Shown piece by piece: positions 19,650 through 57,833 of a DNA stretch of 64,000 nucleotides. Each line of letters opens with the position of its first letter. The first letter of the stretch is position 1. The stretch spans positions 868,001 to 932,000 of the forward strand of contig NZ_CP147919.1 of NCBI RefSeq assembly GCF_039645985.1, read 5' to 3'. Position numbers and translations under genes: made by a program. The notes below the pieces were generated by a model. That model saw only the letters and a program-made list of their open reading frames with translations. It ran no database searches and was not told the origin of the DNA. The DNA is from Sulfurimonas sp. HSL3-7. GTDB lineage: Bacteria > Campylobacterota > Campylobacteria > Campylobacterales > Sulfurimonadaceae.

Positions 19650-19658
19650 GGGAGAGAT

Positions 19659-21476
19659 ATGGCAGCATTATTTACTAAAGACACACAAGCGATTTTCTGG
19701 AATAACAACAAAAGTGCTATCCAGCGTATGCTTGATTACGACTATACAATTGATCGTAAGACGCCTTCTGTTGCGGCAATCGTTGCACCGACTTCAAGTA
19801 GCAAGTTTGAGAAATTCTTCTATGGTCCGGATGAGATCATGGTTCCGATGTTCAGAAGTACGACTGAAGCGGCAGCAGCATTCCCAAATGCTGATGTACT
19901 ATTGAACTTTGCATCTTTCCGTACAGCATATGATGTAACGATGGAAGCGATCGCGATTAAAGGTCAGTTCAAAACGATCATGGTAACCGCAGAAGGTATC
20001 CCTGAACGTCTTGCACGTGGTATGAACCAAGCGGCTCGTGATGCCGGTGTAACTGTCATCGGGCCTGCAACGGTCGGTGGTATTGCTCCAGGTGCTTTCA
20101 AGATCGCTAATGTTGGTGGTACAATCGAAAATATCGTTAACTCTAAACTGCACCGTGCAGGTTCTTGTGGACTTGTTACACGTTCAGGCGGTCTGTTTAA
20201 CGAACTCTCCAACATCATCGCCATCAATGCTGACGGTATCGCCGAGGGTGTTGCTATCGGTGGTGACCGTTTCGTAGGTTCTGTTTTCATTGACAACCTT
20301 CTACGTATGGAAAGCAATCCGGACGTTAAATACATGATCCTTCTTGGTGAAGTCGGTGGTACTGAAGAGTACAAAGTGATCGAGGCAGTTAAAAACGGTC
20401 AGATCAAAAAGCCGATCATCGCATGGTGTATCGGTACGATTGCTAAGCACTTCAGCTCAGGTGTACAGTTCGGTCACGCAGGTGCATCTGCTAATGCTGA
20501 CGCTGAGACGGCTGCAGCTAAAAATGCTGCAATGGCTGAAGCAGGTATTCACGTACCGGCATCATTCAATGACCTTCCTGCTAAGATCAATGAAGTGTAC
20601 AATGACCTTAAAGCCAAAGGTGTCATTACTGATATCGCTGAGCTGGAACTAAAAGTCGTTCCTAAAGTTCGTCGTGCTAAAGAGTTCATCTGTACGATCT
20701 CTGATGACACTGGCGAAGAAGCGACATATGCAGGTTATCCAATTTCTGCTGTTGCAACACCGGAAACCGGTTTCGGTATCGGTGATGTGATTTCACTTCT
20801 TTGGTTCAAAAAACGTTATCCGAAATGGGCAACAGATTACATCGAAACTGTTATCAAAACTGTTGCTGATCATGGTCCGGCCGTATCAGGTGCACATAAT
20901 GCAAAAGTAACAGCACGTGCAGGTAAAGATGTTATCTCTGCATTGGTAACCGGTCTATTGACTATCGGTCCGCGTTTCGGTGGTGCGATTGACGATGCGG
21001 CACGTTATTTTAAATATGCAAACGACAACGGTATGAGTCCGGCTGAATTCATCTCTTATATGAAAAAAGAGGGTAAGACGATCTCTGGTATCGGTCACCG
21101 TATCAAATCGGTACGTAACCCGGACCTTCGTGTTTCAGGTCTTAAGAAGTTTGCTGCGGAAAACTTCCCGGCAACACCGCTTCTTGACTATGCACTTGAA
21201 GTAGAAAAATTGACAACATCTAAGAAAGACAACCTTATCCTAAACGTTGACGGTACTATCGGTATCTTGATGGTTGATATGTGGCGTGCTCTTGGATACT
21301 CTGAAGAAGAGATTGACGGTTTCATCGACGCGGGTGCACTGAATGCATTCTTCGTTGTCGGCCGCTCGATCGGTTTCATCGGTCACATCCTTGACGAAAA
21401 ACGTCTCGGTATGCCAATGTACCGTCACCCGACATCTGACATTCTTTACAATGTCGAAAAAGCAGAAGAGCTCTAA
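19659..21476 (+). CDS. aclA: ATP citrate lyase, alpha (large) subunit
   Basis: The 605-residue subunit has an N-terminal succinyl-CoA synthetase alpha-like part with the phosphohistidine H273 in the motif FGHAGA, and a C-terminal citrate-synthase-like domain (about 345-605) with GIGHRIKSVRNPD and HNAKVTARAG motifs that carry out the citryl-CoA cleavage. Both halves are complete and of normal length. With AclB it shows that this organism fixes CO2 by the reductive TCA cycle. Ribosome site GGGGAG precedes the ATG. A strong Rho-independent terminator follows 16 nt after the stop. Confidence 0.96.
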   Translation: MAALFTKDTQAIFWNNNKSAIQRMLDYDYTIDRKTPSVAAIVAPTSSSKFEKFFYGPDEIMVPMFRSTTEAAAAFPNADVLLNFASFRTAYDVTMEAIAIKGQFKTIMVTAEGIPERLARGMNQAARDAGVTVIGPATVGGIAPGAFKIANVGGTIENIVNSKLHRAGSCGLVTRSGGLFNELSNIIAINADGIAEGVAIGGDRFVGSVFIDNLLRMESNPDVKYMILLGEVGGTEEYKVIEAVKNGQIKKPIIAWCIGTIAKHFSSGVQFGHAGASANADAETAAAKNAAMAEAGIHVPASFNDLPAKINEVYNDLKAKGVITDIAELELKVVPKVRRAKEFICTISDDTGEEATYAGYPISAVATPETGFGIGDVISLLWFKKRYPKWATDYIETVIKTVADHGPAVSGAHNAKVTARAGKDVISALVTGLLTIGPRFGGAIDDAARYFKYANDNGMSPAEFISYMKKEGKTISGIGHRIKSVRNPDLRVSGLKKFAAENFPATPLLDYALEVEKLTTSKKDNLILNVDGTIGILMVDMWRALGYSEEEIDGFIDAGALNAFFVVGRSIGFIGHILDEKRLGMPMYRHPTSDILYNVEKAEEL

Positions 21477-45273: not shown

Positions 45274-45897
45274 TCAGCGTATGCTCTGAAGTGCTTCTCT
45301 GGCCAGGGCGGTGATCTGTTTGAAATCGCCTTGCATGATCGCCCCTTTCGGGACGATCCAGCTGCCGCCGACGCATAAAACGTTGTCGAGTTTCAAAAAG
45401 TCGTTCATGTTGGCAAGGGTGATACCGCCTGTGGGGCAGAAGCGCATAGAGGCAAAAGGGCCGCCAAAGGCTTTGAGTGCCGATGTCCCGCCGACGACCG
45501 TTGCAGGAAAGAGTTTGACGTGCAGCAGGCCGCTGTTTTGTGCGAGCATGACCTCGGAGGCACTGCCGACACCCGGGATAAAAGGGATCTTGTTCGCTTC
45601 GGCACTGGCGATGAGCCCCGGCGTGATACCGGGGCTGAAGACAAAACCGGACCCGTGTTCGAGTGCACTTTTCAGGTCGGACGGATTACAGACGGTACCC
45701 GCACCGACATGCATCTCGGGCATCGTTTTGGCGATCGTTTCAATGGACGTCAACCCGGCCGGAGTGCGGAGGGTGATCTCCATGATCCTGATACCGCCTT
45801 CCAAAAGCGCTTCAGCCAAAGGGAGGGCGTCTCTTTCATTGTCCAGGGCGATAACGGGGACGATCGGCGAGATACTCATGACATCATAGGCGTTCAT
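45274..45897 (-). CDS. eda: KDPG aldolase
   Basis: The 207-residue class I aldolase splits 2-keto-3-deoxy-6-phosphogluconate into pyruvate and glyceraldehyde-3-phosphate, the last Entner-Doudoroff step. The Schiff-base Lys is in the VKLFPATVVGG motif, the general-base Glu in MEITLRT, and the phosphate site in GSWIVPK. Length is standard. It is the last gene of a nine-gene unit, and its ATG overlaps the edd stop by 4 nt. Confidence 0.96.
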   Translation of the reverse strand: MNAYDVMSISPIVPVIALDNERDALPLAEALLEGGIRIMEITLRTPAGLTSIETIAKTMPEMHVGAGTVCNPSDLKSALEHGSGFVFSPGITPGLIASAEANKIPFIPGVGSASEVMLAQNSGLLHVKLFPATVVGGTSALKAFGGPFASMRFCPTGGITLANMNDFLKLDNVLCVGGSWIVPKGAIMQGDFKQITALAREALQSIR

Positions 45898-47723
45898 GCG
45901 CGCTCCTCTCCGGGAAGGTCAAAGATGGTCGCACCCTCTTCGGCACTGTTGACCTCTTGGCGTACCGCTGCAAAAAGTTCCCGGCCGAAACCGTGGTGAC
46001 GCGGTGTGAGCTCGCAGCTTCCAAGCGGACGGGTATCAAATCTATCTTCATCAATCAGCAGGGTGATCTCGCCGTTTTCGATGTCCATACGGATCATGTC
46101 GCCGGTGACGACCTTGGCGATTGCCCCGCCATCCTTGGCTTCCGGGGAGAGGTGGATGGCCGAAGGCACTTTGCCCGAAGCACCGGACATGCGCCCGTCG
46201 GTGATGATGGCCACGTTGAAGCCTTTGTCCTGCAAGACACCCAGCGGCGGCATCAGCCCGTGAAGTTCCGGCATCCCGTTGGCTTTGGGCCCCTGGTAGC
46301 GGACGACGGCGATGAAGTCCCGTTCGAGTTCTCCCGCCTTAAAGGCACGTTGAAGCGCTTCCTGGGATTCGAAGACGATCGCGGGTGCTTCGATGAAGAG
46401 CTGTCCGGGTTTAAGGGCCGAGGTTTTGATAACGCTCCGGCCAAGGTTCCCGGTAAGCAGTTTCAAACCGCCCTCATGGCTGAACGGTGTGTCGGCGGAG
46501 CCGATGACACCGGTGTCCCTGGAGGTTTTCGCCCCTTCTGAAAAGGCGACCTTTCCTCTGTCAAGCTGCGGTTCGACGACGTAGTTTCGCAAGCCTCTGC
46601 CGACGATGGTCTCGACATCGTCATGTACCAGGCCGGCATCCAAAAGCTGGTGGATCACGACGCTCATACCGCCTGCTTCTCGGAAATGGTTGACATCGGC
46701 TTGTCCGTTAGGATACATCTTGCAGAGCAGAGGCGTTACCTTGGAGACGGCATCAAAATCATCCCAGTTGAGGATGATCCCGGCCGCTTTGGCCATAGCA
46801 ATGAGGTGGATGGTGTGGTTGGTTGAACCGCCTGTCGCCATCAGCCCGACGATGGCGTTGACAAAACTTTTTTCATCAATGATGCGGCCTATCGGTTTGT
46901 AGTTCCCTGAACTCTCCGTCATACCGACGATACGCTGTGCGGCGTCCCGGGTGAGGGCATCGCGCAGAGGCGTATCGGTGTTGACAAAAGAGCTGTTGGG
47001 CAGCTGCAGCCCCATCATCTCCAGCAGCATCTGGTTGGAGTTTGCCGTACCGTAGAAGGTACAGGTGCCGCTGCTGTGATAGGAGGCGGATTCGGCTTTG
47101 AGCAGGGCACCTTCGCTCACCTTGCCCTGGGCAAACTCCTGACGTATCAGCGATTTCTCGCTGTTGGAGATACCTGAAGGCATGGGCCCTGCCGGGATGA
47201 AAATGGCGGGAAGATGGCCGAAAGAGAGGGCGCCGATGAGCAGACCCGGCACGATCTTGTCGCAGACGCCGAGGTAGAGTGCGCCGTCATAGACGTTGTG
47301 CGAGAGGGCGATAGCGGTGCCCATGGCGATATTGTCACGGCTGAAAAGGCTCAGCTCCATGCCCGGCTGGGATTGGGTCACCCCGTCGCACATGGCAGGA
47401 ACACCGCCGGCGACCTGGGCCGTCGCACCGACATCCATTAAGGCCCGTTTGATCAGGGGCGGGTAGAGTTTAAAGGGTTCATGGGCGGAGAGCATGTCGT
47501 TGTACGCGGTAACAATGGCGATGTTGGCGGCCGTATCATGTGAGAGGGCCGCTTTCTCTTCTGTGCTCATCGGTGCCATCGCATGAGCGAGGTTGCTGCA
47601 GCCGAGGGTTGTCCGGTTGACGCCGTGCCCCTGCGCCGCGTCAATGCGCGCTTTGTATAGAACACGGCTCTTTTGCGAGCGTTTGATGATCGCATCGGTG
47701 ACGCTCTGGATAATTTCATTCAT
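45894..47723 (-). CDS. edd: Phosphogluconate dehydratase
   Basis: The 609-residue IlvD/Edd-family enzyme turns 6-phosphogluconate into KDPG with an iron-sulphur cluster. Cluster ligands are seen in LGVCDKIVPG and SGTCTFYGTANSNQM, and another in AMCDGVTQSQPGM. Length (about 600) and the MSAHEPF region favour Edd over dihydroxyacid dehydratase, as does its place between pgl and eda. It overlaps both neighbours by 4 nt, so the four ED genes are translationally coupled. Confidence 0.95.
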   Translation of the reverse strand: MNEIIQSVTDAIIKRSQKSRVLYKARIDAAQGHGVNRTTLGCSNLAHAMAPMSTEEKAALSHDTAANIAIVTAYNDMLSAHEPFKLYPPLIKRALMDVGATAQVAGGVPAMCDGVTQSQPGMELSLFSRDNIAMGTAIALSHNVYDGALYLGVCDKIVPGLLIGALSFGHLPAIFIPAGPMPSGISNSEKSLIRQEFAQGKVSEGALLKAESASYHSSGTCTFYGTANSNQMLLEMMGLQLPNSSFVNTDTPLRDALTRDAAQRIVGMTESSGNYKPIGRIIDEKSFVNAIVGLMATGGSTNHTIHLIAMAKAAGIILNWDDFDAVSKVTPLLCKMYPNGQADVNHFREAGGMSVVIHQLLDAGLVHDDVETIVGRGLRNYVVEPQLDRGKVAFSEGAKTSRDTGVIGSADTPFSHEGGLKLLTGNLGRSVIKTSALKPGQLFIEAPAIVFESQEALQRAFKAGELERDFIAVVRYQGPKANGMPELHGLMPPLGVLQDKGFNVAIITDGRMSGASGKVPSAIHLSPEAKDGGAIAKVVTGDMIRMDIENGEITLLIDEDRFDTRPLGSCELTPRHHGFGRELFAAVRQEVNSAEEGATIFDLPGEERA

Positions 47724-48415
47724 CGGAAATAGACCTTTATGTCGGTGAGGTCCTGCTGCAGGACAGAGCGCACAGGCAGCGTATGCATATCCTCGCCCTT
47801 GATCACCTCCTGATAGACGGCAAGCTTCTCTTTGCCCTCGAAGTGAAGGTAGAGATGCCGGGCACTCAGGATCGCAGTACGTGTCAGACTCATACGGCTG
47901 TGCGGTGCTGTCTCCGGTTCGACAGCGATGCAGAATTTTTTGTTTGTGAGGTCCAAGGCGTGGTCGAGTTGCCTGCTTTCAGGGAAAAGCGAGGCGATGT
48001 GGCCGTCTTTTCCCATTCCTAGCAGTGTGACGTCAAAAGGGTAAAGCTCTTTTCGATAGGTTTGTGAACAGTGTTCTTGCGCCTCCTTCAAAGAGAGCCC
48101 CTCCGTGTACATCCCGACAAAACGCGCCTTGCCGGCACGCTCTTGCAGAAGGTGTTTTTTGACAAAGCCTTCATTGCTGTCGTTGTGGGTGGGCGGTACC
48201 CACCGTTCATCGCAGAGTCCTATGCTGACCTTTTCCCACGGCAGGTCAATACGGCGCAGCACTTCAAAAAGCGGTTTCGGGGTACTTCCGCCCGAGACAA
48301 GCATGGTCGCTCTGGCATAATGGCGGATCGCCGTTTTCAGATCGTAGGCTATCTGTTGACTTAAGTCCTCAAGCAACTTGGATTGTGTTGTAAATGCATG
48401 TACAAATTTACTCAT
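47720..48415 (-). CDS. pgl: 6-phosphogluconolactonase
   Basis: This 231-residue NagB-like enzyme hydrolyses 6-phosphogluconolactone, linking Zwf to Edd. Visible motifs are VSGGSTPKPLFEVL, LCDERWVPP and GMGKDGHIASLFP, all diagnostic. ATG at 48415 is chosen because the longer frame to 48481 runs into zwf; this ATG overlaps the zwf stop by 8 nt. Confidence 0.95.
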   Translation of the reverse strand: MSKFVHAFTTQSKLLEDLSQQIAYDLKTAIRHYARATMLVSGGSTPKPLFEVLRRIDLPWEKVSIGLCDERWVPPTHNDSNEGFVKKHLLQERAGKARFVGMYTEGLSLKEAQEHCSQTYRKELYPFDVTLLGMGKDGHIASLFPESRQLDHALDLTNKKFCIAVEPETAPHSRMSLTRTAILSARHLYLHFEGKEKLAVYQEVIKGEDMHTLPVRSVLQQDLTDIKVYFR

Positions 48416-49871
48416 CGTGCCAGCTCCTTCCGTCACGTGCAATGAGATGGATCGCCGCACTCGGCCCGTCGGTGCCGGCATTATACTTTTTCATCGGTGT
48501 CATATTGGCCGCCCAGCCTTTGATGATGGCGTCGGTCCACTTCCATGCGGCTTCGACTTCGTCCAGGCGCATAAAGAGCGTCGGGTTGGCCCGGATGACA
48601 TCCAGCAGCAGCCGTTCATAGGCTTCCGGTTTGCGCTGGTTGTTCATCGGGGCGTTAAGTTCGAGTTCGACCTGCTGCAGGTGCATGTTCTCGCTCAGAC
48701 CCGGAATCTTGTTCATCAGTTTGAGACGGATACTCTCTTTGGGCTGCAGGGAGATGACCAGCTGGTTCTCGGAGATGCAGGCGCCGTTGTTGGCAAAGAT
48801 GGAGTGGGGTACGGTTTTGAACTGGATCACGATCTCGGAGTAGCGCTGGCGCATTCGTTTGCCGCTGCGGATATAAAACGGTACCCCGTTCCAGCGCCAG
48901 TTGTCGATATCGACGCGCAGGGCGGTAAAGGTTTCGGTCGTACTGTTCTCGACCCCTTCGCCTTCCTGGTAGCCGGGGACGGCCTCCCCGCCGTTTGAAC
49001 CGCTGGTGTACTGGGCGCGGACGCTTTTCTGCTCGATGTCGGTCGGTGTCATAGGGCGGAGCGAACGGAGGACTTTGACCTTTTCGTCACGGGTACTGTC
49101 GGCCTCTAGCGAACACGGCGGCTCCATCGCGACAAGGCAGAGCAGCTGCATCAGGTGGTTCTGGATCATGTCGCGCATGGCGCCGTATTCGTCATAATAG
49201 CCCCAGCGTCCTTCGACACCGACGCTTTCGGCGACGGTGATCTGGACGTGGTCGATGTTGTCGGAGGACCACAGCGGCATGAAAAATCGGTTGGAAAAAC
49301 GCAGCGCCATAATGTTCTGTACCGTGTCTTTGCCGAGATAGTGGTCGATGCGGTAGATCTGGTTCTCGTCGAAATATTTAAGGACCTCTTTATTGATCAC
49401 CTGTGACGACTGGAGGTCGCGGCCGATCGGTTTTTCGAGAACGACCCGGCTTTTCTCGGTAATAAGCTCCCATTGGCTGAGTGACTGGCAGATACTGCCG
49501 AAAAAGCTTGGCGAAGTTGACAGGTAATTGACGCGTTCGCGTTCGGGATGCTCGTTCAACAGTTCCTTGAGCCCTTTATAGCTTTGGCTGTCGGTAAAGT
49601 CAACGGTTACGAGACGGAGCTGCTTTTTGAAGCGTTCAAATTTTTCGGGTTCGAACGCCCCTTCAGGCAGAAATTCCTGAAGTTTTGTTTCGACCAGTGC
49701 GATATGCTCGCTGCAGTCCATATGGTCACGGCTCAGGGTGATGATACGGGCGTTTGCCGTGAGGTAACCGTCGCTGTAGAGGAAATAGAGTGCCGGCATC
49801 AGCTTGCGAAATGCCAGATCACCGTGTCCTCCGAAGATCATGATGTCACAAAGATTTTCCAGTTCACTCAT
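48408..49871 (-). CDS. zwf: Glucose-6-phosphate 1-dehydrogenase
   Basis: The 487-residue enzyme oxidises glucose-6-phosphate to the lactone and yields NADPH or NADH. The N-terminal nucleotide-binding motif reads GGHGDLA in place of the usual GASGDLA. The catalytic motif RIDHYLGK is intact, as is EKPIGRDL. ATG at 49871 follows GAGGAAAA; the frame runs 60 codons further without a ribosome site. It lies 28 nt after galU and overlaps pgl. The changed nucleotide motif may affect cofactor preference, which cannot be read from sequence. Confidence 0.95.
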   Translation of the reverse strand: MSELENLCDIMIFGGHGDLAFRKLMPALYFLYSDGYLTANARIITLSRDHMDCSEHIALVETKLQEFLPEGAFEPEKFERFKKQLRLVTVDFTDSQSYKGLKELLNEHPERERVNYLSTSPSFFGSICQSLSQWELITEKSRVVLEKPIGRDLQSSQVINKEVLKYFDENQIYRIDHYLGKDTVQNIMALRFSNRFFMPLWSSDNIDHVQITVAESVGVEGRWGYYDEYGAMRDMIQNHLMQLLCLVAMEPPCSLEADSTRDEKVKVLRSLRPMTPTDIEQKSVRAQYTSGSNGGEAVPGYQEGEGVENSTTETFTALRVDIDNWRWNGVPFYIRSGKRMRQRYSEIVIQFKTVPHSIFANNGACISENQLVISLQPKESIRLKLMNKIPGLSENMHLQQVELELNAPMNNQRKPEAYERLLLDVIRANPTLFMRLDEVEAAWKWTDAIIKGWAANMTPMKKYNAGTDGPSAAIHLIARDGRSWHDE

Positions 49872-49899
49872 TTTTTCCTCTTTTACGCGATGCGTTGGG

Positions 49900-50730
49900 C
49901 TATTGTTCTTTTTCCAGATCGTAGAAGTAGTTGGTCGCTTCCACAAAACCGTCGACACTCCCGCAGTCAAAGCGCTTGCCTTTGAATTTATAGGCGATGA
50001 CCATCCCTTTTTTGGCCTGTGTACAGAGGGCATCGGTGATCTGAAGTTCACCGTTCTTGCCCGGTTTTGTCTTCTCGATGACTTTGAAGATATCCGGGGT
50101 CAGGATATAGCGGCCGATAACGGCGAGGTTGGTCGGTGCCTTGTCGTTGTCGGGTTTTTCGACCATGTTGGAGACCATATAGACGTCGTCTTCGATCATG
50201 TTCCCTTCGATGACACCGTATTTGTGGACCTCTTCGAGCGGGACTTCCATGGTTGCGACGATGCAGCACTTATACTTGTTGTAAAGCTCGACCATCTGTT
50301 TGAGAATGCCGTCACCTTCGGGGTTGACGCAGAGGTCGTCCGCGAGTATCACGGCGAAAGGGTCCTGCTCGCCGACGAGAACCTTGCCTTTATAGATGGC
50401 ATCACCGAGGCCTTTCATCTCGTTTTGGCGGGTATAGGTAAAGGTGCACTTGTCGATGATGTTACGGATGCCGCCGAGCAGGGCCTCTTTGGAAGAGCCT
50501 TCGATCTGGTGTTCAAGTTCGTATGAGATGTCAAAGTGGTCCGTAATAGCGCGTTTACCGCGACCGGTAATGACACTCATGACGTTGCATCCGGCCTCCA
50601 TCGCCTCTTCGACACCGTACTGGATAAGCGGTTTGGTCAGTACCGGCAGCATCTCTTTAGGCATCGCTTTGGTAGCAGGCAGAAATCGTGTTCCGTAACC
50701 TGCGGCAGGGAATAGACATTTTGTAATCAT
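49900..50730 (-). CDS. galU: UTP-glucose-1-phosphate uridylyltransferase
   Basis: The 276-residue nucleotidyltransferase makes UDP-glucose from glucose-1-phosphate and UTP. The N-terminal motif AAGYGTRFLPATKAMPKEMLP is read in parts, and ILADDLC and VEKP are in place. In this operon it links glucose-1-phosphate released by the phosphorylase to the UDP-glucose needed by the glucosyl-3-phosphoglycerate synthase, and it will also serve LPS synthesis. It lies 31 nt after the phosphorylase gene. Confidence 0.95.
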   Translation of the reverse strand: MITKCLFPAAGYGTRFLPATKAMPKEMLPVLTKPLIQYGVEEAMEAGCNVMSVITGRGKRAITDHFDISYELEHQIEGSSKEALLGGIRNIIDKCTFTYTRQNEMKGLGDAIYKGKVLVGEQDPFAVILADDLCVNPEGDGILKQMVELYNKYKCCIVATMEVPLEEVHKYGVIEGNMIEDDVYMVSNMVEKPDNDKAPTNLAVIGRYILTPDIFKVIEKTKPGKNGELQITDALCTQAKKGMVIAYKFKGKRFDCGSVDGFVEATNYFYDLEKEQ

Positions 50731-50761
50731 TGGTAATCCTTTTGTAGTGTTTGTTTCATCA

Positions 50762-52480
50762 TTAGTGTTCGCCTCTCAGCCACATTATCTGATACGGTTC
50801 AAGGGTGACCTCTTTGGCCGTGTCAACCTCATACGTTGAGAGCAGGTCTTTTAACGGCAAGTTGAATTCGTCCGGGAGCTTCACCGTGACACTTTCATCG
50901 GAGAAGTTATGCAGGGCCAAAACATACTCTGTCTCTTCACAGCAGCTTTGATCGACAACAAAGAGACGTTTGTCAAGATCATAAAAGCGAAAACGGCCAA
51001 AAGGGTTGAAGGCTTTTTCACTGATACGGATTGAGATCAGACGTTTGTAACTGTCGAGCATGGTCTTGGCAAGCGTGCCCTGTGTCGAGAGTTCGTTCTC
51101 CAGCCAGTCGATGTGGTATTTTTCACGGTTGATAGCACGGTTGATACCGGTGTGTTTGACCCCGTCGTGATAGTTTCTCGAACCGACAAGCGAGTGAAAG
51201 TAGATGCCCGGAACACCCGGCATAACCAAGACTGTCGCCTGTGACAACAGCATTCGCTTGAATCGTATCACGTCACTTTCGTCAGGATGCGTCAATGCGT
51301 CGATATAACTGCAGTTGATCTCATATGGACTCTGTGAACCGTCTTCTTCGGCCCGGTATGAGACCAGACCGCCATGCTCTTGAATGGCGGTGACCATATA
51401 GTCAATATCTTCTTCAGTGAGTATCCCTTTGACAGGACGCAGACCGATACCGTCGTGGCTGGCCGTAAAGTTGAAAAAGCAGACCTTATTGCTTGGCAGG
51501 GTCAGGGTCTGTGCCCAGGAAGTGAGGGTGGTCGTATCGCCGTGCATGATTGCGTGCAGCAGCAGCGGCGGCAGGGCAAAATTGTAGACCATCTGCGCTT
51601 CATCGTCACCGCTTCCGAAATAGGAGACATTCTCATGGTGGGGGACATTGGTCTCGGTGATGATGATCACCTCGGGTGCCACTTCGTGCAAGACCTCACG
51701 CATCAACTGGATAAGTTCATGGGTCTGGGGAAGGTGGACGCATTCGGTACCGATCTCTTTCCAGATGAACGCAATGGCATCAAGCCGTATCAGTGTCGCC
51801 CCTTTTTCGATGTAGTAGAAAAGTGCATCCAGTACATTGCGCAGGACACGGTGGTTTTTGTAGTTGAGATCGACCTGGTCTCTGCTGAAGGTGGTCCAGA
51901 TGTTATGGATCTTGCCCTCGTTGTCTACGAACTCGCTCAGAACCGGCGTCGCACGCGGGCGGACCACTTTACTCAAGTCGACAGCCGGGTCGACCTCCGT
52001 AAAAAAATCCTTGAAGTAGGTGTCGCCGGCGAGGAAGGCTTTGAACCAGTCGGAATACTGGGAGACGTGGTTGATGACACCATCGACCATTAGACGGTAG
52101 TGGGCGCTGATGGTTTCGATCTCGCGCCATGAACCCATATGCGGATCGACCGCAGAGTAGTTTACAACCGAAAATCCGCTGTCCGATGATGAGGGATAAA
52201 AAGGGAGAATGTGGACAGAGTTCACGATGCCATGCAGGTGATTCTCCAAAAAACTGTAAAGCGTCTGCAGCGAGGCTTCGTGGTTACGGTTGACCTGGTC
52301 GCCGTAGGTGATAAGGATGATATCCTTTTCACTCAGATGGTACTCTTTTGAGGTGATACGCTGTTTGTATTTAAAGACAAGGTCGATGATATCATTGACG
52401 GCACGTTCTGCTATTTCGGGAGAGTAGAGTTTGTGCAAGCGTCTGTTGATAGTGTGGTCGGGATCGGAGATGTGCTTCAT
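50762..52480 (-). CDS. GH13 sucrose phosphorylase-family enzyme, probable glucosylglycerate phosphorylase
   Basis: The 572-residue cytoplasmic alpha-amylase-family enzyme of the sucrose phosphorylase subgroup (GH13_18) has all three catalytic acids: nucleophile D234 (IRLDA), acid/base E276 (TETN) and transition-state stabiliser D343 (SHDG). The N-terminal ITYGDQVNRN and YPSSSDSGFSV stretches fit this subgroup. Members act on sucrose, sucrose-6-phosphate or glucosylglycerate; the neighbouring glucosylglycerate genes make glucosylglycerate plus phosphate to glucose-1-phosphate plus D-glycerate the likely reaction. No sucrose synthesis genes are near. It overlaps the synthase stop by 4 nt. Confidence 0.85.
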   Translation of the reverse strand: MKHISDPDHTINRRLHKLYSPEIAERAVNDIIDLVFKYKQRITSKEYHLSEKDIILITYGDQVNRNHEASLQTLYSFLENHLHGIVNSVHILPFYPSSSDSGFSVVNYSAVDPHMGSWREIETISAHYRLMVDGVINHVSQYSDWFKAFLAGDTYFKDFFTEVDPAVDLSKVVRPRATPVLSEFVDNEGKIHNIWTTFSRDQVDLNYKNHRVLRNVLDALFYYIEKGATLIRLDAIAFIWKEIGTECVHLPQTHELIQLMREVLHEVAPEVIIITETNVPHHENVSYFGSGDDEAQMVYNFALPPLLLHAIMHGDTTTLTSWAQTLTLPSNKVCFFNFTASHDGIGLRPVKGILTEEDIDYMVTAIQEHGGLVSYRAEEDGSQSPYEINCSYIDALTHPDESDVIRFKRMLLSQATVLVMPGVPGIYFHSLVGSRNYHDGVKHTGINRAINREKYHIDWLENELSTQGTLAKTMLDSYKRLISIRISEKAFNPFGRFRFYDLDKRLFVVDQSCCEETEYVLALHNFSDESVTVKLPDEFNLPLKDLLSTYEVDTAKEVTLEPYQIMWLRGEH

Positions 52481-53688
52481 GCATTATCCTTTTCGACATA
52501 CGCTGCAAATTTTTCTGAAAATCCAGGCAGGACCGATCGGACGGTGATCCACGGGGAGAGGGAGGGGACACCCATCGGGTCTTTGTAGAACTCTTCCGCG
52601 GCTGCTTTGATGGCACCCTCAAAGGCCTCAACGGCATTGATCTCTTTTTCACGGTTGTATTTGAGATCGTTGAGCTTGCTTAATGCGTTGAATTTTGAGA
52701 TCTCAAAGCGGGACTCTTGAAAGTAGGTCGCCAGAAGCGTCTTAAACGAAGCCCGGGAGAAAACAACCCCCTCTTGGGCCAGGACTCTGAAAAGTGTTTT
52801 TGCAATGTCGTTGGACATCTTATAGATGCCGCCGCCGGAGTCTTGGCTTCCGAGCTCCTGGTGTTTATGTTCGTAGCTCTCCATGATCTCTGTCTGACAG
52901 ATACGGCGGTTGGAGGTGTTTTTATAGACCTCGCTCAGTGTCGAGACCTCAAGCCCCCACGTCGGTGAGATACTGATCCCCCGGCCCAGCGAACGGATAA
53001 AGGCGAACTCGCCGGAGAGTGAGTAGCGGAAACTCTCCATGTAATCAAGGTAGCGGTTGTTTCCGAAGACCTTGACCAGCGAGTGGACCAGCGGTGAGTA
53101 GAAGAGACGTGTCACACGGCCGTGAAGCTTGTCCGTGACGCGCGAGTAGAAGCCTTTGTTAAACTCAAAATCCAGTGCCGGGTGGACAATGGGGAAAAAG
53201 AGACGTGCCGGAACCTCACGCGTGTAGTTTACGATATCACAATCGTGCAGTGCAAAAGCGTAGGCGTCCTGATCGGTCAGGCCATAACCTATCATGGTCC
53301 AGACATTACGCCCTTTGCCGGGTGTATCCAGACCGGGGAACCCCTCGGCTGTCAGTTCTGCATAAAGCTCTTTGATTCGCGGACCGTCGTTCCAGAGAAC
53401 GTCGACCTGGCACGGCAGAACGGACATAAGTGCCTTGACCTCTTCAAACTGTTCTTCGGTGGCCTGGTCAAGCCCGAGAATGATCTTGTAAAGGTAGTTG
53501 ACACCTTTGAGCTCTTCAATGATCTTGTGCATAGCCGGCGTTTCAAACTCCGAGTAGAGTGCCGGCAGCAGAAGGACCATACGATGTCGTTTACCATATT
53601 CGACTAACTCGGATTCCATATCTTCCAGGGAACGGTCCCCAAGTTTTTGTAGGGTGGTGATGACGCCGTTTTGAAAAAAATCAGCCAT
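52477..53688 (-). CDS. gpgS: Glucosyl-3-phosphoglycerate synthase
   Basis: The 403-residue glycosyltransferase with a GT-A fold has a nucleotide-sugar site in GKGRNVW (124-130), a metal-binding DCD (149-151, ALHDCDIV), FNKGFYSRV and GRVTRL stretches, and a helical C-terminal third. This matches the GT81-like glucosyl-3-phosphoglycerate synthases, which join glucose from an NDP-glucose to 3-phosphoglycerate. A phosphatase gene of the matching kind is two genes upstream, which supports the call over a mannosyl enzyme. Its start overlaps the kinase stop by 8 nt. Confidence 0.85.
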   Translation of the reverse strand: MADFFQNGVITTLQKLGDRSLEDMESELVEYGKRHRMVLLLPALYSEFETPAMHKIIEELKGVNYLYKIILGLDQATEEQFEEVKALMSVLPCQVDVLWNDGPRIKELYAELTAEGFPGLDTPGKGRNVWTMIGYGLTDQDAYAFALHDCDIVNYTREVPARLFFPIVHPALDFEFNKGFYSRVTDKLHGRVTRLFYSPLVHSLVKVFGNNRYLDYMESFRYSLSGEFAFIRSLGRGISISPTWGLEVSTLSEVYKNTSNRRICQTEIMESYEHKHQELGSQDSGGGIYKMSNDIAKTLFRVLAQEGVVFSRASFKTLLATYFQESRFEISKFNALSKLNDLKYNREKEINAVEAFEGAIKAAAEEFYKDPMGVPSLSPWITVRSVLPGFSEKFAAYVEKDNA

Positions 53689-55000
53689 TGTTCTCTCCTT
53701 TTTGAGGTGTAGGTTCGATCAACATCATGACGATATCGAGCAGGTTGTTGTGTGTAGGCCCCGTGATAAGAAGTTCGCCTGTCTTTGAAAAAAAGGTGTT
53801 GGAGTCATAGGTCTCAAGGTAGTGCTGCGGATCGATCTCATGTGCGAGGGCATAGACCCGGCTGTGCATGTCGACAAGTGCCCCGGCTGCATCTGAATTC
53901 CCGTCGACACCGTCGGTGGCCGCACTTAAAAAAGTGACGTCGCATTCACCGTCAAGAAGCAGTAAAACAGAAAGTGCCAGATGCTGGTTGCGTCCGCCGC
54001 TGCCTTCGCCCCGGACAGTGACAGTGGCTTCACCGCCAAAGATGAAGCAGTGTCGTTCACCTTGATAGTTTCGTGCAAACGTCACCAGTTCACGCGCCAG
54101 TTCAGTGGCGTCCCCTTCTAACGGTTTCTTCGAAAGTGTTGCGGGAATACCGGCTTTATCCATAAGGGCCTTTGCCTTGTTCAGTACGATGGTATTGGAA
54201 CCGAGGATAATATGGTGAATGTTGGTGTTCTCCGACTTCGGTGTCTCCGGATGTTTTGCTTCTGCGCCCTCTTTTAAGAAGGTTTGCACCCCCTCTGGCA
54301 AGTGATCAAACAGGGCATGCTTCTCAAGCGATACTATGGCATCGTTAAAGGTGGTCGTGTCAAAATAGAGCGGTGCCGAACCGATGGCATGGAGGTCATC
54401 ATCCAGTACATCCGAAAGGACAAGGACCAGCCCTTTGGCCTGGGTGCATTCTGCCAGTTTACCGCCTTTGACTTGCGAGAGATGTTTGCGGACACTGTTG
54501 ATCTCTTCGATGGGCATACCGCCTTTTAACATCAGCGCCGTTGTTTTTTGAAAGTCTTCAAGGCTTATCGATGCTTCGGGAAGTTCGACCATAGCCGAAT
54601 TTCCGCCGGAGAGGAGGTAGATGAAAAAGTCATCTTCCTGCAGGATTTCAAGCTGTTTTCGAAGCGCTTTAGCCGCGTCGATACTTTGTTGCGAGGGGAG
54701 AGGATGGGTACTTTTTATGTAACGGGTATTGTCAAGTTCTATATCGTTCTCATAGGCGCCAACGATCAGGGTCTGTGCAATCCTGTCACCCATGATGGAT
54801 TGTAAGGCTTTTGCCATCGGTACAACCGCTTTTCCGGAGCCCAGCAGGTGTATGTTTTTGTACGTTTGAAGCGGATAATCACGACCGTGCACGCTAAAGA
54901 CATCATTTTCATAACGGCATTGCTGTGCGATCAGGTTGTCCGGTCTGATCTCTTCGATCAGGGCGTTAAAGGTGCGGTGCAACAGCTTTTTATTGGACAT
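53681..55000 (-). CDS. Glycerate 2-kinase of the MOFRL family
   Basis: The 439-residue two-domain kinase has an N-terminal GK-II domain (LLGSGKAVVPMAKAL near 50-64, LLSGGNSAM near 158, and VRKHLSQVKGG) and a C-terminal MOFRL domain (about 300-425: FGGEATV, GRNQHLAL, FLSAATDGVDGNSDAAGA). These kinases convert D-glycerate to 2-phosphoglycerate. Here it would rescue the glycerate set free by the phosphorylase and return it to lower glycolysis. It overlaps both neighbours (11 and 8 nt). Confidence 0.9.
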   Translation of the reverse strand: MSNKKLLHRTFNALIEEIRPDNLIAQQCRYENDVFSVHGRDYPLQTYKNIHLLGSGKAVVPMAKALQSIMGDRIAQTLIVGAYENDIELDNTRYIKSTHPLPSQQSIDAAKALRKQLEILQEDDFFIYLLSGGNSAMVELPEASISLEDFQKTTALMLKGGMPIEEINSVRKHLSQVKGGKLAECTQAKGLVLVLSDVLDDDLHAIGSAPLYFDTTTFNDAIVSLEKHALFDHLPEGVQTFLKEGAEAKHPETPKSENTNIHHIILGSNTIVLNKAKALMDKAGIPATLSKKPLEGDATELARELVTFARNYQGERHCFIFGGEATVTVRGEGSGGRNQHLALSVLLLLDGECDVTFLSAATDGVDGNSDAAGALVDMHSRVYALAHEIDPQHYLETYDSNTFFSKTGELLITGPTHNNLLDIVMMLIEPTPQKGENNG

Positions 55001-55778
55001 GTAGGTAGCCTTTTAGTGCCGAATTCCACCCTTCTGGGCCGGGAAAAGGCGCTTTGATAAGGTGCGGAATATCGCAGGGGATATAGCTGCCGTCAGGATG
55101 CGGTATCAAGATAGGAACATCGACACTCTGCAGCATCGTCAGGTCATTTTCACTGTCGCCTAGAGCGATACTCGTAACGCTTGTGCCGTAGAGATTTTCG
55201 TAATGTTGGATCACTTTGCGGATAGCAGCGGCTTTGTCCTGACCTTTGGTGATAAGGTGATAGAAGCGGCCGCCTTTGACGACGTCAAAGCCGTCTTTTT
55301 CAGCCATCTTTCTGAGTTTTTGAAGATCCTCATCCTTATCAAGGACAAAGGGTTCGCTGAAGTCGCGGCGACTGGCAAGATAGGCTCTATCCGGGGAGAG
55401 TGACGTGCGTTCAGCGATTTCGTCGATCTGCATGTCTGAAAAACCGTACATGGGGATTTCTTCGGCATACTTGACAAAGGCGCGGCGTGTCTGGTCATAG
55501 CGCTTGCCGAGAGGGATTATAAGATGCCCTTCCTCTTTAGGAAGATAGATACCGGCACCGTTTTCGATAATAAAAGGGGCGGTAATGCCGAGCGCTTCTT
55601 GCAGCTGCAGAACCTCACTTTTTGTTTTACTGGTCACGATAATAAGCGGGATATTGTTGTGTTTGAGAAAATCAAGCATGTGGGAAGCCGGTTTAAAACT
55701 GTAGCTGTCATGATCGAGCAGTGTTCCATCAAGGTCGGTAAATACCAGGATATTCTTCGTCGGCTTTTTATTTAACAT
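54990..55778 (-). CDS. Glucosyl-3-phosphoglycerate phosphatase (HAD-IIB, mannosyl-3-phosphoglycerate phosphatase family)
   Basis: The 262-residue HAD phosphatase has motif I DLDGT (D15 and D17), a later TSKTKSEV (motif II Thr/Ser region), a Lys in the C1B cap, and motif III/IV GDSENDLTML. It belongs to the family that dephosphorylates mannosyl- or glucosyl-3-phosphoglycerate; the linked synthase points to the glucosyl form, giving glucosylglycerate. It is the first gene of the nine-gene unit. The ATG has no Shine-Dalgarno and is preceded 6 nt upstream by TATAAT, so the message is probably leaderless. Confidence 0.87.
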   Translation of the reverse strand: MLNKKPTKNILVFTDLDGTLLDHDSYSFKPASHMLDFLKHNNIPLIIVTSKTKSEVLQLQEALGITAPFIIENGAGIYLPKEEGHLIIPLGKRYDQTRRAFVKYAEEIPMYGFSDMQIDEIAERTSLSPDRAYLASRRDFSEPFVLDKDEDLQKLRKMAEKDGFDVVKGGRFYHLITKGQDKAAAIRKVIQHYENLYGTSVTSIALGDSENDLTMLQSVDVPILIPHPDGSYIPCDIPHLIKAPFPGPEGWNSALKGYLHVQ

Positions 55779-55784
55779 GCAAAA

Positions 55785-55790
55785 ATTATA
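55785..55790 (-). promoter_or_regulatory. -10 box of the glucosylglycerate/Entner-Doudoroff unit (leaderless)
   Basis: On the minus strand the sequence is GGCTATAATTTTTGCATG: the -10 ends 6 nt before the ATG. A start of transcription 7 nt after the -10 falls on the A of the start codon. Confidence 0.6.
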
Positions 55791-55989
55791 GCCTTTATTG
55801 ATCGTTTATCAAACTAATTATTGTATATATTTTAAACATACTCTATTAATTATAGTATGGATGGTCTTCATTAAGGCGTGTAAGCGACACAAGTATGGTC
55901 AAGATGCGAATAGTGAGTGATGTCTGGGGGGCAGCCGGTCAGCTGTCAAGAAAGATCACATGCTCTATCGGGGCGCCGGCAGCAATCTG

Positions 55990-57666
55990 TTATGGTAATG
56001 CAGGACTATTGTCGTCTGCAGCCTGTCGGGTGTTTTGCAGGCGCAGTATTTTGCGCAGTGCTTTGGTGAAGTTCTTACTGAGATGCAGATCGTTGACGGC
56101 GATGGTCGTCATCTCTGAAGCGATGGCGCGGTTGGCGGCGATATCGTTGATGAGCGTCATATTGTTCTTGTGTGAATCAGCGATCTGTCTGTAGACGGCC
56201 TCCATCTCCTCCATGGCATGGTTTTCGTTTTTCCTCGCCTTTTCGAAGGCCTTTACACTGCTGAGGACCTGGTAGCGCAGGTTGCGTAAAAAACTCTGTT
56301 CCTGAGTGCTCTGAGCATTGTAGAGCCTGTCGATGTCGTAGAGCATGTCTTTGATCGCCTTGGCGGCAGAGGCTAGATGCGTCGTATGCTCGGCAAGCGA
56401 TGCGATCTGCTCCTGAAAACCTGCGGCAGCGTTTTTGAGCGAAAGCTGTGTGATGTAACGAAAGATCTCGCCTTCCAGACGGCGGATATTGTCATAAAGC
56501 TTGCCGTATGTAAGACCGAGATTTTCCTGGTAGAGGTCCAGAAGTTTTTTCCGTGAAACATTCTCTTCCAGGACTTTCGGCGGTGGGATGTTGATCGCCA
56601 GAAGTGCGAACTCTTCGACTTTTTTTTCAAGGCGCATCACTTCTGTACGCAAGGCGTCAAGTGCGACATCGGGGATGTCAAGCGGCACATTGTGAATGTA
56701 TCTGGTGACGTAGTGCGGCTCTTTTATGAAAAAACGGTGCAGCCAAAGCGAAAGCGGTGCAATAAAGGGAAACCAGAGTGTGACACCGAGAATATTGAAG
56801 ATGGTATGGAACAGTGCGATCTGGATCACAGAATCAGCGGCCGGAATGATATGCAGGGTCAGCCAGACCAGCGGCGTCAGTGCGGCCAGTGCGACAATCC
56901 CTGTCGAGAAGTTGAAAAAGAGATGGGCCAGTGCCGTCCGTTTTTTATCGGATGTCCCCCCGAATGATCCCAGTATTACGGTCGCGGTGGTCCCTATATT
57001 GGCGCCGATCACAAAGGCTGCCGCCGCTTCGAACCCGATCAGCTGTGCGAATAGGGCACTCTGAATGATCGCAATGGAAGCTGAGCTGGACTGGATGACC
57101 GCCGTGATAGTGAAACCGATCAAGGTATACCAGTAGACATTGTCAAGACGGTAGGCACTGATGTCAAAGTTTTCTGCGAAGGTGGAAAAACTCTCTTTCA
57201 TCCCTTCCAGTCCGAGAAAGATGAGCCCGAAGCCGACCATCCCGCCGAAATGGCTTTTCCAGGGGCTCTCGCTGTCGGCCATGACACCGCCGAGACCGCC
57301 GATACCGATCATGACGTAGGCAATGATCTTGATGTCCATCTTAAAGCCGACAAGACCGACGATCCAGGCTGTCACGGTCGTACCGATGTTGGAGCCGAAG
57401 ATCATTGCTATGGCACTCTCGAGGTTGATCAGTTGCGCACCGACAAGGGAGAGCGCCATCAGAGAGACAATTGAAGAGCTCTGAAACAGAGCCGTCGCAG
57501 AGAGACCGGTCAGCAGGCTTTTGAAGGTGGTGCTCGTCGTCTTGTGAACCCAATGTTTGAAGGCCCGTCCGGCGGAGGCTTTGATCTGTGATTCAAGATA
57601 GAGCATACCGAACAGAAAAAGACCGAGCCCGGCAAAAGCTTCGATCCAAAGCGAGAGATACTGCAT
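55990..57666 (-). CDS. Na/Pi cotransporter-family protein with PhoU-like domain
   Basis: The 558-residue inner-membrane protein has two inverted transport repeats, each with the hallmark QSSS motif (FQSSSIVSL near 60 and IQSSSASIAI near 190), and eight or nine helices up to about residue 330, followed by a long helical C-terminal region (about 345-550) of PhoU-like type. This is the NptA/YjbB layout. It may export or import phosphate with sodium. ATG at 57666 is preferred, with AGGA 8 nt upstream. The gene stands alone; about 200 nt after its stop lies the glucosylglycerate unit's promoter. Confidence 0.9.
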   Translation of the reverse strand: MQYLSLWIEAFAGLGLFLFGMLYLESQIKASAGRAFKHWVHKTTSTTFKSLLTGLSATALFQSSSIVSLMALSLVGAQLINLESAIAMIFGSNIGTTVTAWIVGLVGFKMDIKIIAYVMIGIGGLGGVMADSESPWKSHFGGMVGFGLIFLGLEGMKESFSTFAENFDISAYRLDNVYWYTLIGFTITAVIQSSSASIAIIQSALFAQLIGFEAAAAFVIGANIGTTATVILGSFGGTSDKKRTALAHLFFNFSTGIVALAALTPLVWLTLHIIPAADSVIQIALFHTIFNILGVTLWFPFIAPLSLWLHRFFIKEPHYVTRYIHNVPLDIPDVALDALRTEVMRLEKKVEEFALLAINIPPPKVLEENVSRKKLLDLYQENLGLTYGKLYDNIRRLEGEIFRYITQLSLKNAAAGFQEQIASLAEHTTHLASAAKAIKDMLYDIDRLYNAQSTQEQSFLRNLRYQVLSSVKAFEKARKNENHAMEEMEAVYRQIADSHKNNMTLINDIAANRAIASEMTTIAVNDLHLSKNFTKALRKILRLQNTRQAADDNSPALP

Positions 57667-57833
57667 CTCATGGTTCCTTTTACGCAAAAACATGCCGGGA
57701 GAGCATGGTGCGAAAATAGTTTATCATTGTAATCTTCTTGCTTATTGTAGCGCAAATAGAAAGGCGCGATCTGCCTGACTGATTTTGATAGACAAACGTT
57801 GCAAGAGGGGGATGTTTTTTTGGTGTTCTATTG

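Follow-up and report, generated by a model that had tools for sequence, protein, structure and literature searches.

A minus-strand gene run in Sulfurimonas sp. HSL3-7 that places predicted glucosylglycerate turnover beside the Entner-Doudoroff pathway

Why should genes for making and breaking down a compatible solute run directly into those of the Entner-Doudoroff (ED) pathway? The question is raised by nine minus-strand open reading frames (ORFs) at positions 45274-55778 of a 64-kb stretch of the Sulfurimonas sp. HSL3-7 genome (the window, meaning the whole of the DNA analyzed), which in transcription order encode a GpgP-like phosphatase, a MOFRL glycerate kinase, GpgS, a GH13_18 phosphorylase, GalU, Zwf, Pgl, Edd, and Eda (Table 1). 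After start correction, the successive junctions measure -11, -8, -4, +31, +28, -8, -4, and -4 nt, which confirms an earlier description, made from the letters of the DNA, of 4- to 11-nt overlaps and gaps of no more than 31 nt; the gaps on either side of galU are the sole ones in the run, all other junctions being overlaps. The mechanical ORF list was over-long for zwf and pgl, whose likely starts are 49871 (with AAAGAGGAAAAA immediately upstream of the ATG) and 48415. Because the same order is found again in other records, the nine-gene order is beyond chance. Our preferred answer, to which we assign a probability of roughly 0.6, is that the nine genes form one transcription unit for glucosylglycerate turnover with a carbon outlet.

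Table 1. Predicted features of the nine-gene run, in window coordinates, with family scores in bits and model cut-offs in parentheses
Feature	Coordinates	Strand	Evidence
Predicted promoter TTGATA-16-TATAAT	55785..55812	-	11/12 matches; ends 6 nt before gpgP ATG
gpgP-like HAD-IIB phosphatase (MPGP family), 262 aa	54990..55778	-	TIGR01486 (MPGP subfamily), 225 (165); PDB 3ztw MpgP, E 1.3e-32
Glycerate 2-kinase type, DUF4147 + MOFRL, 439 aa	53681..55000	-	Pfam, both over cut-off; PDB 1x3l, 2b8n
gpgS, glucosyl-3-phosphoglycerate synthase type, 403 aa	52477..53688	-	Profile and fold
GH13_18-type phosphorylase, predicted glucosylglycerate phosphorylase, 572 aa	50762..52480	-	Conserved residues; PDB 7qqj sucrose phosphorylase, E 3.9e-62
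galU, UTP-glucose-1-phosphate uridylyltransferase, 276 aa	49900..50730	-	TIGR01099, 388 (327)
zwf, glucose-6-phosphate dehydrogenase, 487 aa	48408..49871	-	TIGR00871, 584 (401); start corrected from 50051
pgl, 6-phosphogluconolactonase, 231 aa	47720..48415	-	TIGR01198, 183 (124); start corrected from 48481
edd, 6-phosphogluconate dehydratase, 609 aa	45894..47723	-	TIGR01196, 966 (708)
eda, KDPG aldolase, 207 aa	45274..45897	-	TIGR01182, 248 (156)

The gene identities proposed in the sequence-only reading are supported by NCBIfam/TIGR and Pfam family matches. All four members of the ED set score over their curated cut-offs, the zwf and pgl searches having been run with the long ORFs before start correction. 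The phosphatase falls below the cut-off in every narrower MPGP equivalog model, and the kinase does so for the glycerate 2-kinase model NF041176 (234 versus 550 bits). The same reading had credited each protein with complete catalytic motifs; this holds residue by residue for the GH13 protein, while for the other eight it rests on family matches.

For GpgS, which we take to belong to GT81, the NCBIfam equivalog GpgS_Meth (NF040724) gives 307 bits, under the cut-off of 700, as is also the case for GpgS from a Persephonella metagenome-assembled genome (MAG; 345 bits). No Pfam family matched at an E value of 0.001, and a single-sequence search against the PDB returned no match. A 28-row profile found GpgS in the PDB (E 1.8e-6), and the best Foldseek match of the structure model (pLDDT 91.3) is GpgS as well (E 2.7e-11; TM 0.51 by query and 0.66 by target), with only about 20 percent identity to the solved GpgS. 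The profile search and the predicted fold support GpgS as the probable identity. One might ask whether the glycoside turned over by the run is mannosylglycerate, or something else again, rather than glucosylglycerate, since the phosphatase family is named after mannosyl-3-phosphoglycerate and the MpgS of Rubrobacter is also among the Foldseek matches of the GpgS model. We judge this highly improbable, however, given that GpgS entries rank first in both the profile and the fold searches, that galU lies within the run, and that the GH13 enzyme carries GGaP marks.

The published marks of glucosylglycerate phosphorylases (GGaP, EC 2.4.1.352) are a (T/S)ETN motif and a Glu in loop A, at a position that is Gln in most of the other GH13_18 enzymes (PMC7178133). 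The window protein has ITETN at residues 274-278 and E387 in loop A. In an alignment of 45 of the 49 members (the 4 shorter ones being omitted), TETN and the loop A Glu occur in 45 of 45 rows, the window's included, and D234, E276-T277-N278, D343, and E387 are each invariant. The window residues are probably the counterparts of Asn275 and Glu383 in the M. silvanus protein (PMC7178133), which lies outside our alignment. Under the sucrose phosphorylase model TIGR03852, the protein scores below the cut-off (232 versus 334 bits). With both marks present in all rows, the earlier proposal that this is an enzyme of the glucosylglycerate phosphorylase type stands as a prediction from sequence.

In the preferred turnover reading, GalU would supply UDP-glucose, GpgS would couple it to 3-phosphoglycerate, and the HAD phosphatase would release glucosylglycerate, to be retained as a compatible solute. 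Its unmaking would start with the GH13 enzyme, which would use phosphate to yield glucose-1-phosphate and glycerate, the latter being converted by the MOFRL kinase to 2-phosphoglycerate. Phosphoglucomutase would then lead to glucose-6-phosphate, from which Zwf, Pgl, Edd, and Eda would give pyruvate and glyceraldehyde-3-phosphate, the Zwf step forming one NAD(P)H. The phosphoglucomutase gene is at 66.7 kb of the genome, outside the nine-gene run, just as had been anticipated. The scheme draws on the genes, their order, the family matches, the specificity marks, and the recurrence described below; the activities, the osmolyte role, and the direction of flux we infer from these. Genes for synthesis and for breakdown in one unit would amount to a futile cycle unless regulated, and the scheme presupposes that such cycling is avoided. 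The genome also holds alternative ED feeds in the form of glucokinase and glycogen genes, and its phosphofructokinase (PFK) allows the Embden-Meyerhof-Parnas (EMP) route.

Co-transcription, too, is a prediction, drawn solely from spacing, strand, and synteny. A promoter search returned 8 promoter-like sites against 7.1 expected by chance; the site before gpgP scores best, and its spacing is kept in relatives. Placed so close to the ATG, it makes the gpgP start look leaderless. Sites at 51927-51900 and 51609-51581 fall within the GH13 gene and belong to a total that is at chance level. The run could alternatively consist of two units, gpgP-glxK-gpgS-GH13 for the osmolyte and galU-zwf-pgl-edd-eda for hexose phosphate, set head to tail by chance or transfer. 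Consistent with this, the run's only gaps flank galU (31 nt from GH13, 28 nt to zwf), the four-gene core occurs with no adjoining galU in 7 Flavobacteriaceae loci having 10 kb of downstream sequence (in an eighth, L037, the flank is too short to score galU), and the window's nearest rows in the Edd and GpgS trees disagree, except for L031. Neither gap contains a promoter-like site, however, and galU directly follows GH13 in 21 of the 25 Campylobacterota loci with room for it; we consider a two-unit origin quite unlikely.

The single-unit reading gains from the behavior of the linkage elsewhere. When the neighborhoods of gpgS homologues were searched for linked ED genes, the linkage recurred: 11 of 80 loci have edd no more than 10 kb from gpgS, and they show two arrangements. 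One, in L035, reads gpgP-glxK-gpgS-GH13-galU-zwf-pgl-edd-eda-pgm-pgi on one strand (the phosphatase frame is two ORFs in that record, and pgi runs past the locus end); the other, in L062, reads glk-zwf-pgl-edd-eda-pgi-gpgP-glxK-gpgS-GH13-galU. Among the Campylobacterota loci, 25 extend 8 kb or more beyond gpgS on both sides; in these we found the phosphatase in 24, the kinase in 24, GH13 in 23, galU in 21, phosphoglucose isomerase in 13, and edd in 9. Across 397 genomes of the phylum, gpgS is present in 26, true edd in 69, and both in 15. Six of these 15 are linked, one more is probably linked at contig breaks, and eight are unlinked, with the genes of G249 and G327 on different contigs; chance placement of edd (20 kb out of 2.5 Mb) predicts linkage at about 0.8 percent per genome. 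The gpgS of G327 is split into two frames, with neither GH13 nor the kinase seen beside it, and in G304 the kinase gene is absent between gpgP and gpgS.

On the Edd tree, the downstream linkage cannot be traced to one origin: an AU test rejects a single clade for the 13 Edd rows linked in this way (p 0.0055, on a quick tree with the group defined by the trait and G292 scored as linked), and the linkage therefore seems to have been gained or lost more than once. Rough counts give 7 changes on the Edd tree and, on the GpgS tree, 9 over the 57 scored rows (the other 32 of 89 being left unscored owing to short flanks) or 11 over all 89.

Adjacency does not by itself say what feeds the ED enzymes. 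They may serve mainly to gain NADPH and pyruvate by oxidizing glucose-6-phosphate that comes from glycogen or glucose, and the gene order would then reflect common regulation or a common pool of hexose phosphates instead of glucosylglycerate flux. The 66.7-86.4 kb region of this genome brings together two glgA genes, glgB, an alpha-glucan phosphorylase gene, pgm, and pgi, and glucokinase is encoded at 1.327 Mb. Moreover, gpgS is missing from 54 of the 69 edd genomes, among them G359, which has zwf-pgl-edd-eda and in which PF02685 glucokinase, ROK kinase, and glgA are all missing. Against this stands the recurrence of the linkage in several lineages and in two arrangements, including genomes without PF02685, ROK, and glgA: in G122, G304, G324, and G342, zwf-pgl-edd-eda, gpgS, and GH13 are all present and none of those three feeds scores over its cut-off. 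On balance, we find a glycogen or glucose feed somewhat unlikely as the explanation. We rejected the rule that the cassette is invariably present wherever ED genes occur in the absence of glucokinase: the present genome has a glucokinase, and G359 has neither gpgS nor any of the tested feeds. Phylum-wide Fisher tests give p 0.005 and 0.0068, both ignoring kinship, and a 2x2 test of the 8 genomes within f7, the family code of G359, gives p 1.0.

The sequence-only reading had made glucosylglycerate a carbon and reductant store; present evidence does not justify calling it the carbon store of the organism, glycogen genes, PFK, pyruvate kinase, and glucokinase being present as well, and the glycogen genes rule it out as the sole store in this genome. 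A search for gnd (PF00393) came back empty for this genome and for the 30 genomes tested, so there is no visible oxidative pentose outlet for 6-phosphogluconate; counter to that argument, Arcobacter anaerophilus IR-1 is credited with a complete pentose phosphate pathway (PMC4584990). ATP citrate lyase is present, as had been noted, at 18330-21476 on the plus strand. To call a complete ED pathway beside it unusual was an overstatement, with true edd in 69 of the 397 genomes, and both ED and the reductive tricarboxylic acid cycle described for IR-1 (PMC4584990). The ED pathway is also reported for a Sulfurospirillum isolate (PMC11406935).

How much of this arrangement is new? The cassette for synthesis, phosphorolysis, and glycerate phosphorylation is already known: GGaP genes often occur with glycerate kinase, GpgS, or GpgP genes (Franceus et al. 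2017, via PMC7178133), and the window has the same four. Unlike those neighborhoods, it adds galU-zwf-pgl-edd-eda, ED genes being unmentioned in the accessible part of that account (PMC7178133). In searches of the open-licence literature, we found neither the cassette joined to Zwf-Pgl-Edd-Eda nor any paper on glucosylglycerate in connection with Sulfurovum. Persephonella marina uses a GpgS/GpgP route to glucosylglycerate (PMC2874817). Persephonella MAG loci resemble the window in carrying GpgS on the same strand as the phosphatase and the MOFRL kinase, the GpgS being 63 percent identical to ours. They differ, together with other Aquificota and further lineages, in that 20 of the 80 loci have an additional glycosyltransferase (Pfam Glycos_transf_2 and MGS_GT), usually just before gpgS, and no GH13; the two occur together in none of the 80. 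We presume this glycosyltransferase to be the one-step synthase Ggs. Entner-Doudoroff gene clusters also occur in Campylobacter, and by coordinates, edd is grouped with other ED genes in further Campylobacterota as it is here. In many genomes without gpgS (e.g., G042), glk lies a few kilobases from edd, whereas the window joins osmolyte genes to the ED set, with glk and pgi lying elsewhere in the genome.

Two puzzles meet at this locus. The metabolic function of glucosylglycerate phosphorylase had no experimental confirmation as of a 2020 review of GH13_18 (PMC7178133), and Arcobacter anaerophilus IR-1 has a complete ED pathway with the hexokinase gene absent and glucose not used (PMC4584990). 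The gene content suggests that a salt-stress protectant, glucosylglycerate, may double as internal fuel. More tentatively, it is possible that in these Campylobacterota glucosylglycerate is both a salt protectant and a reserve of carbon and NADPH, and the main internal ED feed in Arcobacter-like genomes that have ED and the cassette and are without the two glucokinase families and glycogen synthase. The run of phosphorylase and ED genes thus offers one testable answer to both puzzles, namely that the phosphorylase would move the osmolyte into the ED pathway when salt drops or energy runs short. If true, such use of the compound as an ED feed would account for the retention of the Entner-Doudoroff pathway in bacteria for which glucose is not a growth substrate.

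The nine minus-strand genes of the sequence-only reading (gpgP, glycerate kinase, gpgS, GH13, galU, zwf, pgl, edd and eda) were borne out by the ORF list, the family matches and the junctions, which in transcription order measure -11, -8, -4, +31, +28, -8, -4 and -4 nt; the starts of zwf and pgl shifted later. They lie in a single-contig genome of 2.87 Mb, where the window spans bases 868001-932000, and the closest relatives of the window genes come from Campylobacterota. Our best explanation, with a probability of about 0.6, is that the run forms one unit coupling glucosylglycerate turnover to an Entner-Doudoroff (ED) carbon outlet, a predicted functional coupling that is plausible and testable. 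Upstream of the run lies a Na/Pi cotransporter gene, which also adjoins the run in L031, another gpgS neighborhood.

Sites and loci discussed in the text (window coordinates unless marked otherwise)
Feature	Location	Details
Nine-gene run	45274-55778	minus strand
pgl start	48415	revised, later
zwf start	49871	revised, later
Promoter-like site	55785-55812	minus strand; TTGATA-16-TATAAT
Na/Pi cotransporter gene	55990-57693	minus strand
Compact gene run (L116, L117)	G000:C1:66744-86401 (window's genome)	pgm-gap-pgi-alpha-glucan phosphorylase-pgk-nucleotidyltransferase/mutase fusion-GH57-galT-glgA-glgA-glgB; identities of gap, pgk, fusion, GH57 and galT judged by eye
Glucokinase and neighbor	L118:9431-13635 = G000:C1:1327431-1331635	adjoins gene for 1060-aa protein
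edd downstream of galU	L031, L032, L035, L036, L044, L077	gpgS loci
edd upstream of phosphatase	L047, L048, L049, L060, L062	gpgS loci
Further glycosyltransferase	L078-L083, L085-L092, L095, L097-L100, L103	gpgS loci

The GH13 protein did not reach the sucrose phosphorylase family-profile cut-off, and it carries both marks of glucosylglycerate phosphorylases given in PMC7178133, (T/S)ETN and a Glu replacing Gln in loop A. Residues D234, E276, T277, N278, D343 and E387 are identical in all 45 alignment rows, the window's own counted. GpgS misses the NCBIfam cut-off, as does a Persephonella MAG protein, and a single-sequence search of the PDB with the window's GpgS returned no match. A 28-sequence profile found GpgS structures there (E 1.8e-6), and solved GpgS structures, at ~20 percent identity, are the best match of its AlphaFold2 model (pLDDT 91.3, pTM 0.90). 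The presence of galU within the run favors UDP-glucose as donor sugar.

The glucosylglycerate part of the run is of an already known kind. Scanning genome contigs for GpgS confirmed 136 relatives; among the best 80, used as loci, a phosphatase lies near gpgS in 65, a MOFRL kinase in 59, GH13 in 49 and a further, MGS_GT-like glycosyltransferase in 20, counts that short contigs lower. GH13 and the further glycosyltransferase occur together in none of these 80. Within 1.5 kb flanks of gpgS, a phosphatase adjoins the gene in all 26 phylum genomes that carry it; the kinase adjoins in 24 (exceptions G304 and G327) and GH13 in 23 (exceptions G057, G258 and G327). In G304 (L009) the stretch from gpgP to gpgS lacks a glycerate kinase gene; in G327 (L029, L030), gpgS is broken over two frames, with neither GH13 nor kinase found adjoining.

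The Edd tree pairs Candidatus Sulfurimonas ponti with G327, which shares family f1 with the window's genome, and judged from such tree neighbors f1 probably goes with Sulfurimonas-like bacteria. Family f7, called Arcobacter-like here, clusters, in the Edd tree and the GpgS tree alike, with records whose titles name Arcobacter, Halarcobacter and Arcobacteraceae. Eight Flavobacteriaceae loci (L037-L041, L043, L046, L101) hold the four-gene core, and four Psychrobacter loci (L050-L053) hold phosphatase and GpgS only. Because a quick GpgS tree places the former among Arcobacter-like rows and the latter next to L048, inside the Sulfurimonas-like part, it suggests transfer out of Campylobacterota, with marine Flavobacteriaceae receiving the core and Psychrobacter just gpgP-gpgS.

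As a variant, the ED junction is recurrent; we found no description of it in the literature searched. Within 10 kb of gpgS, edd was found in 11 of the best 80 loci, on one side or the other. In L047-L049 an opposite-strand phosphoglucomutase gene separates the edd side from the phosphatase, so these count as neighborhoods rather than a single operon. In L035 the complete loop shares a single strand, phosphoglucomutase and phosphoglucose isomerase included, and the phosphatase reads as two ORFs in the same frame. Among 397 genomes drawn evenly from the phylum, gpgS occurs in 26, edd over cut-off in 69 (708 bits; weaker matches in most other genomes reach at most ~295 bits among the matches listed) and both in 15, a co-occurrence above chance (Fisher p 1.6e-6, kinship ignored). 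The proposed search for linked ED genes in Campylobacterota found linkage by coordinates in 6 of these 15 (the window's genome G000, G122, G304, G324, G377 and G396); in G292 each of the two genes lies close to a different contig end, and in G061, G191, G249, G288, G305, G327, G342 and G360 they are unlinked, on different contigs in G249 and G327. A single clade of the 13 downstream-linked Edd rows was ruled out (AU p 0.0055).

The run opens with gpgP, whose start appears to be leaderless and conserved. The region's best promoter-like site ends 6 nt 5' of the gpgP ATG; across the region, 8 such sites were observed versus 7.1 expected. Motif-based gpgP starts (ATG at most 16 residues from DLDGT, with 60 nt of upstream sequence; loci L031-L104) numbered 47, of which 40 were used and 7 from other phyla excluded. 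A -10 hexamer (at least 5/6 matches) precedes the ATG by exactly 6 nt in 15 of the 40, with a lesser peak at 19 nt (n = 7), versus 5 of 306 operon-start-like control genes of the same loci; Shine-Dalgarno-like words precede 3 of 40 versus 148 of 306, control starts being mechanical first ATGs, some wrong, rows being related and p values a guide only. A looser test of 61 starts gave 22 versus a shuffle mean of 7.5 (maximum 14). Since the box lies 6 nt before the ATG, the predicted transcript start is its A, where the gpgP transcript should begin.

As the sequence-only reading had required, phosphoglucomutase is encoded elsewhere (TIGR01132, 879 bits, over cut-off), with phosphoglucose isomerase (540 bits, over cut-off), at 66.7-70.7 kb of the genome beside alpha-glucan phosphorylase, two glgA and glgB. 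A glucokinase gene lies at 1.327 Mb; by eye, its 1060-aa neighbor looks like a glucoamylase or phosphorylase-kinase type. Because phosphoglucomutase, glycogen genes and glucokinase are present, the predicted ED pathway can take glycogen, glucose or glucosylglycerate. PFK and pyruvate kinase were both found; gnd was found neither here nor in any of 30 genomes tested further, the 26 with gpgS plus the 4 edd-only genomes that lack the PF02685 glucokinase (50 of the 54 have it). Three of these four (G199, G284 and G195) have ROK and glgA; G359 is without PF02685, ROK and glgA and has zwf, pgl, edd and eda. Four Arcobacter-like genomes (G122, G304, G324 and G342) likewise have zwf-pgl-edd-eda, with no PF02685, ROK or glgA match over cut-off. 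That G359 holds all four ED genes, and that gpgS is broken in G327, slightly lowers our confidence in both the coupling and a dual use of the solute. We tentatively propose that glucosylglycerate may serve as salt protectant and internal reserve, and might be the main internal ED feed in those Arcobacter-like genomes that carry the cassette and the ED genes without PF02685, ROK or glgA.
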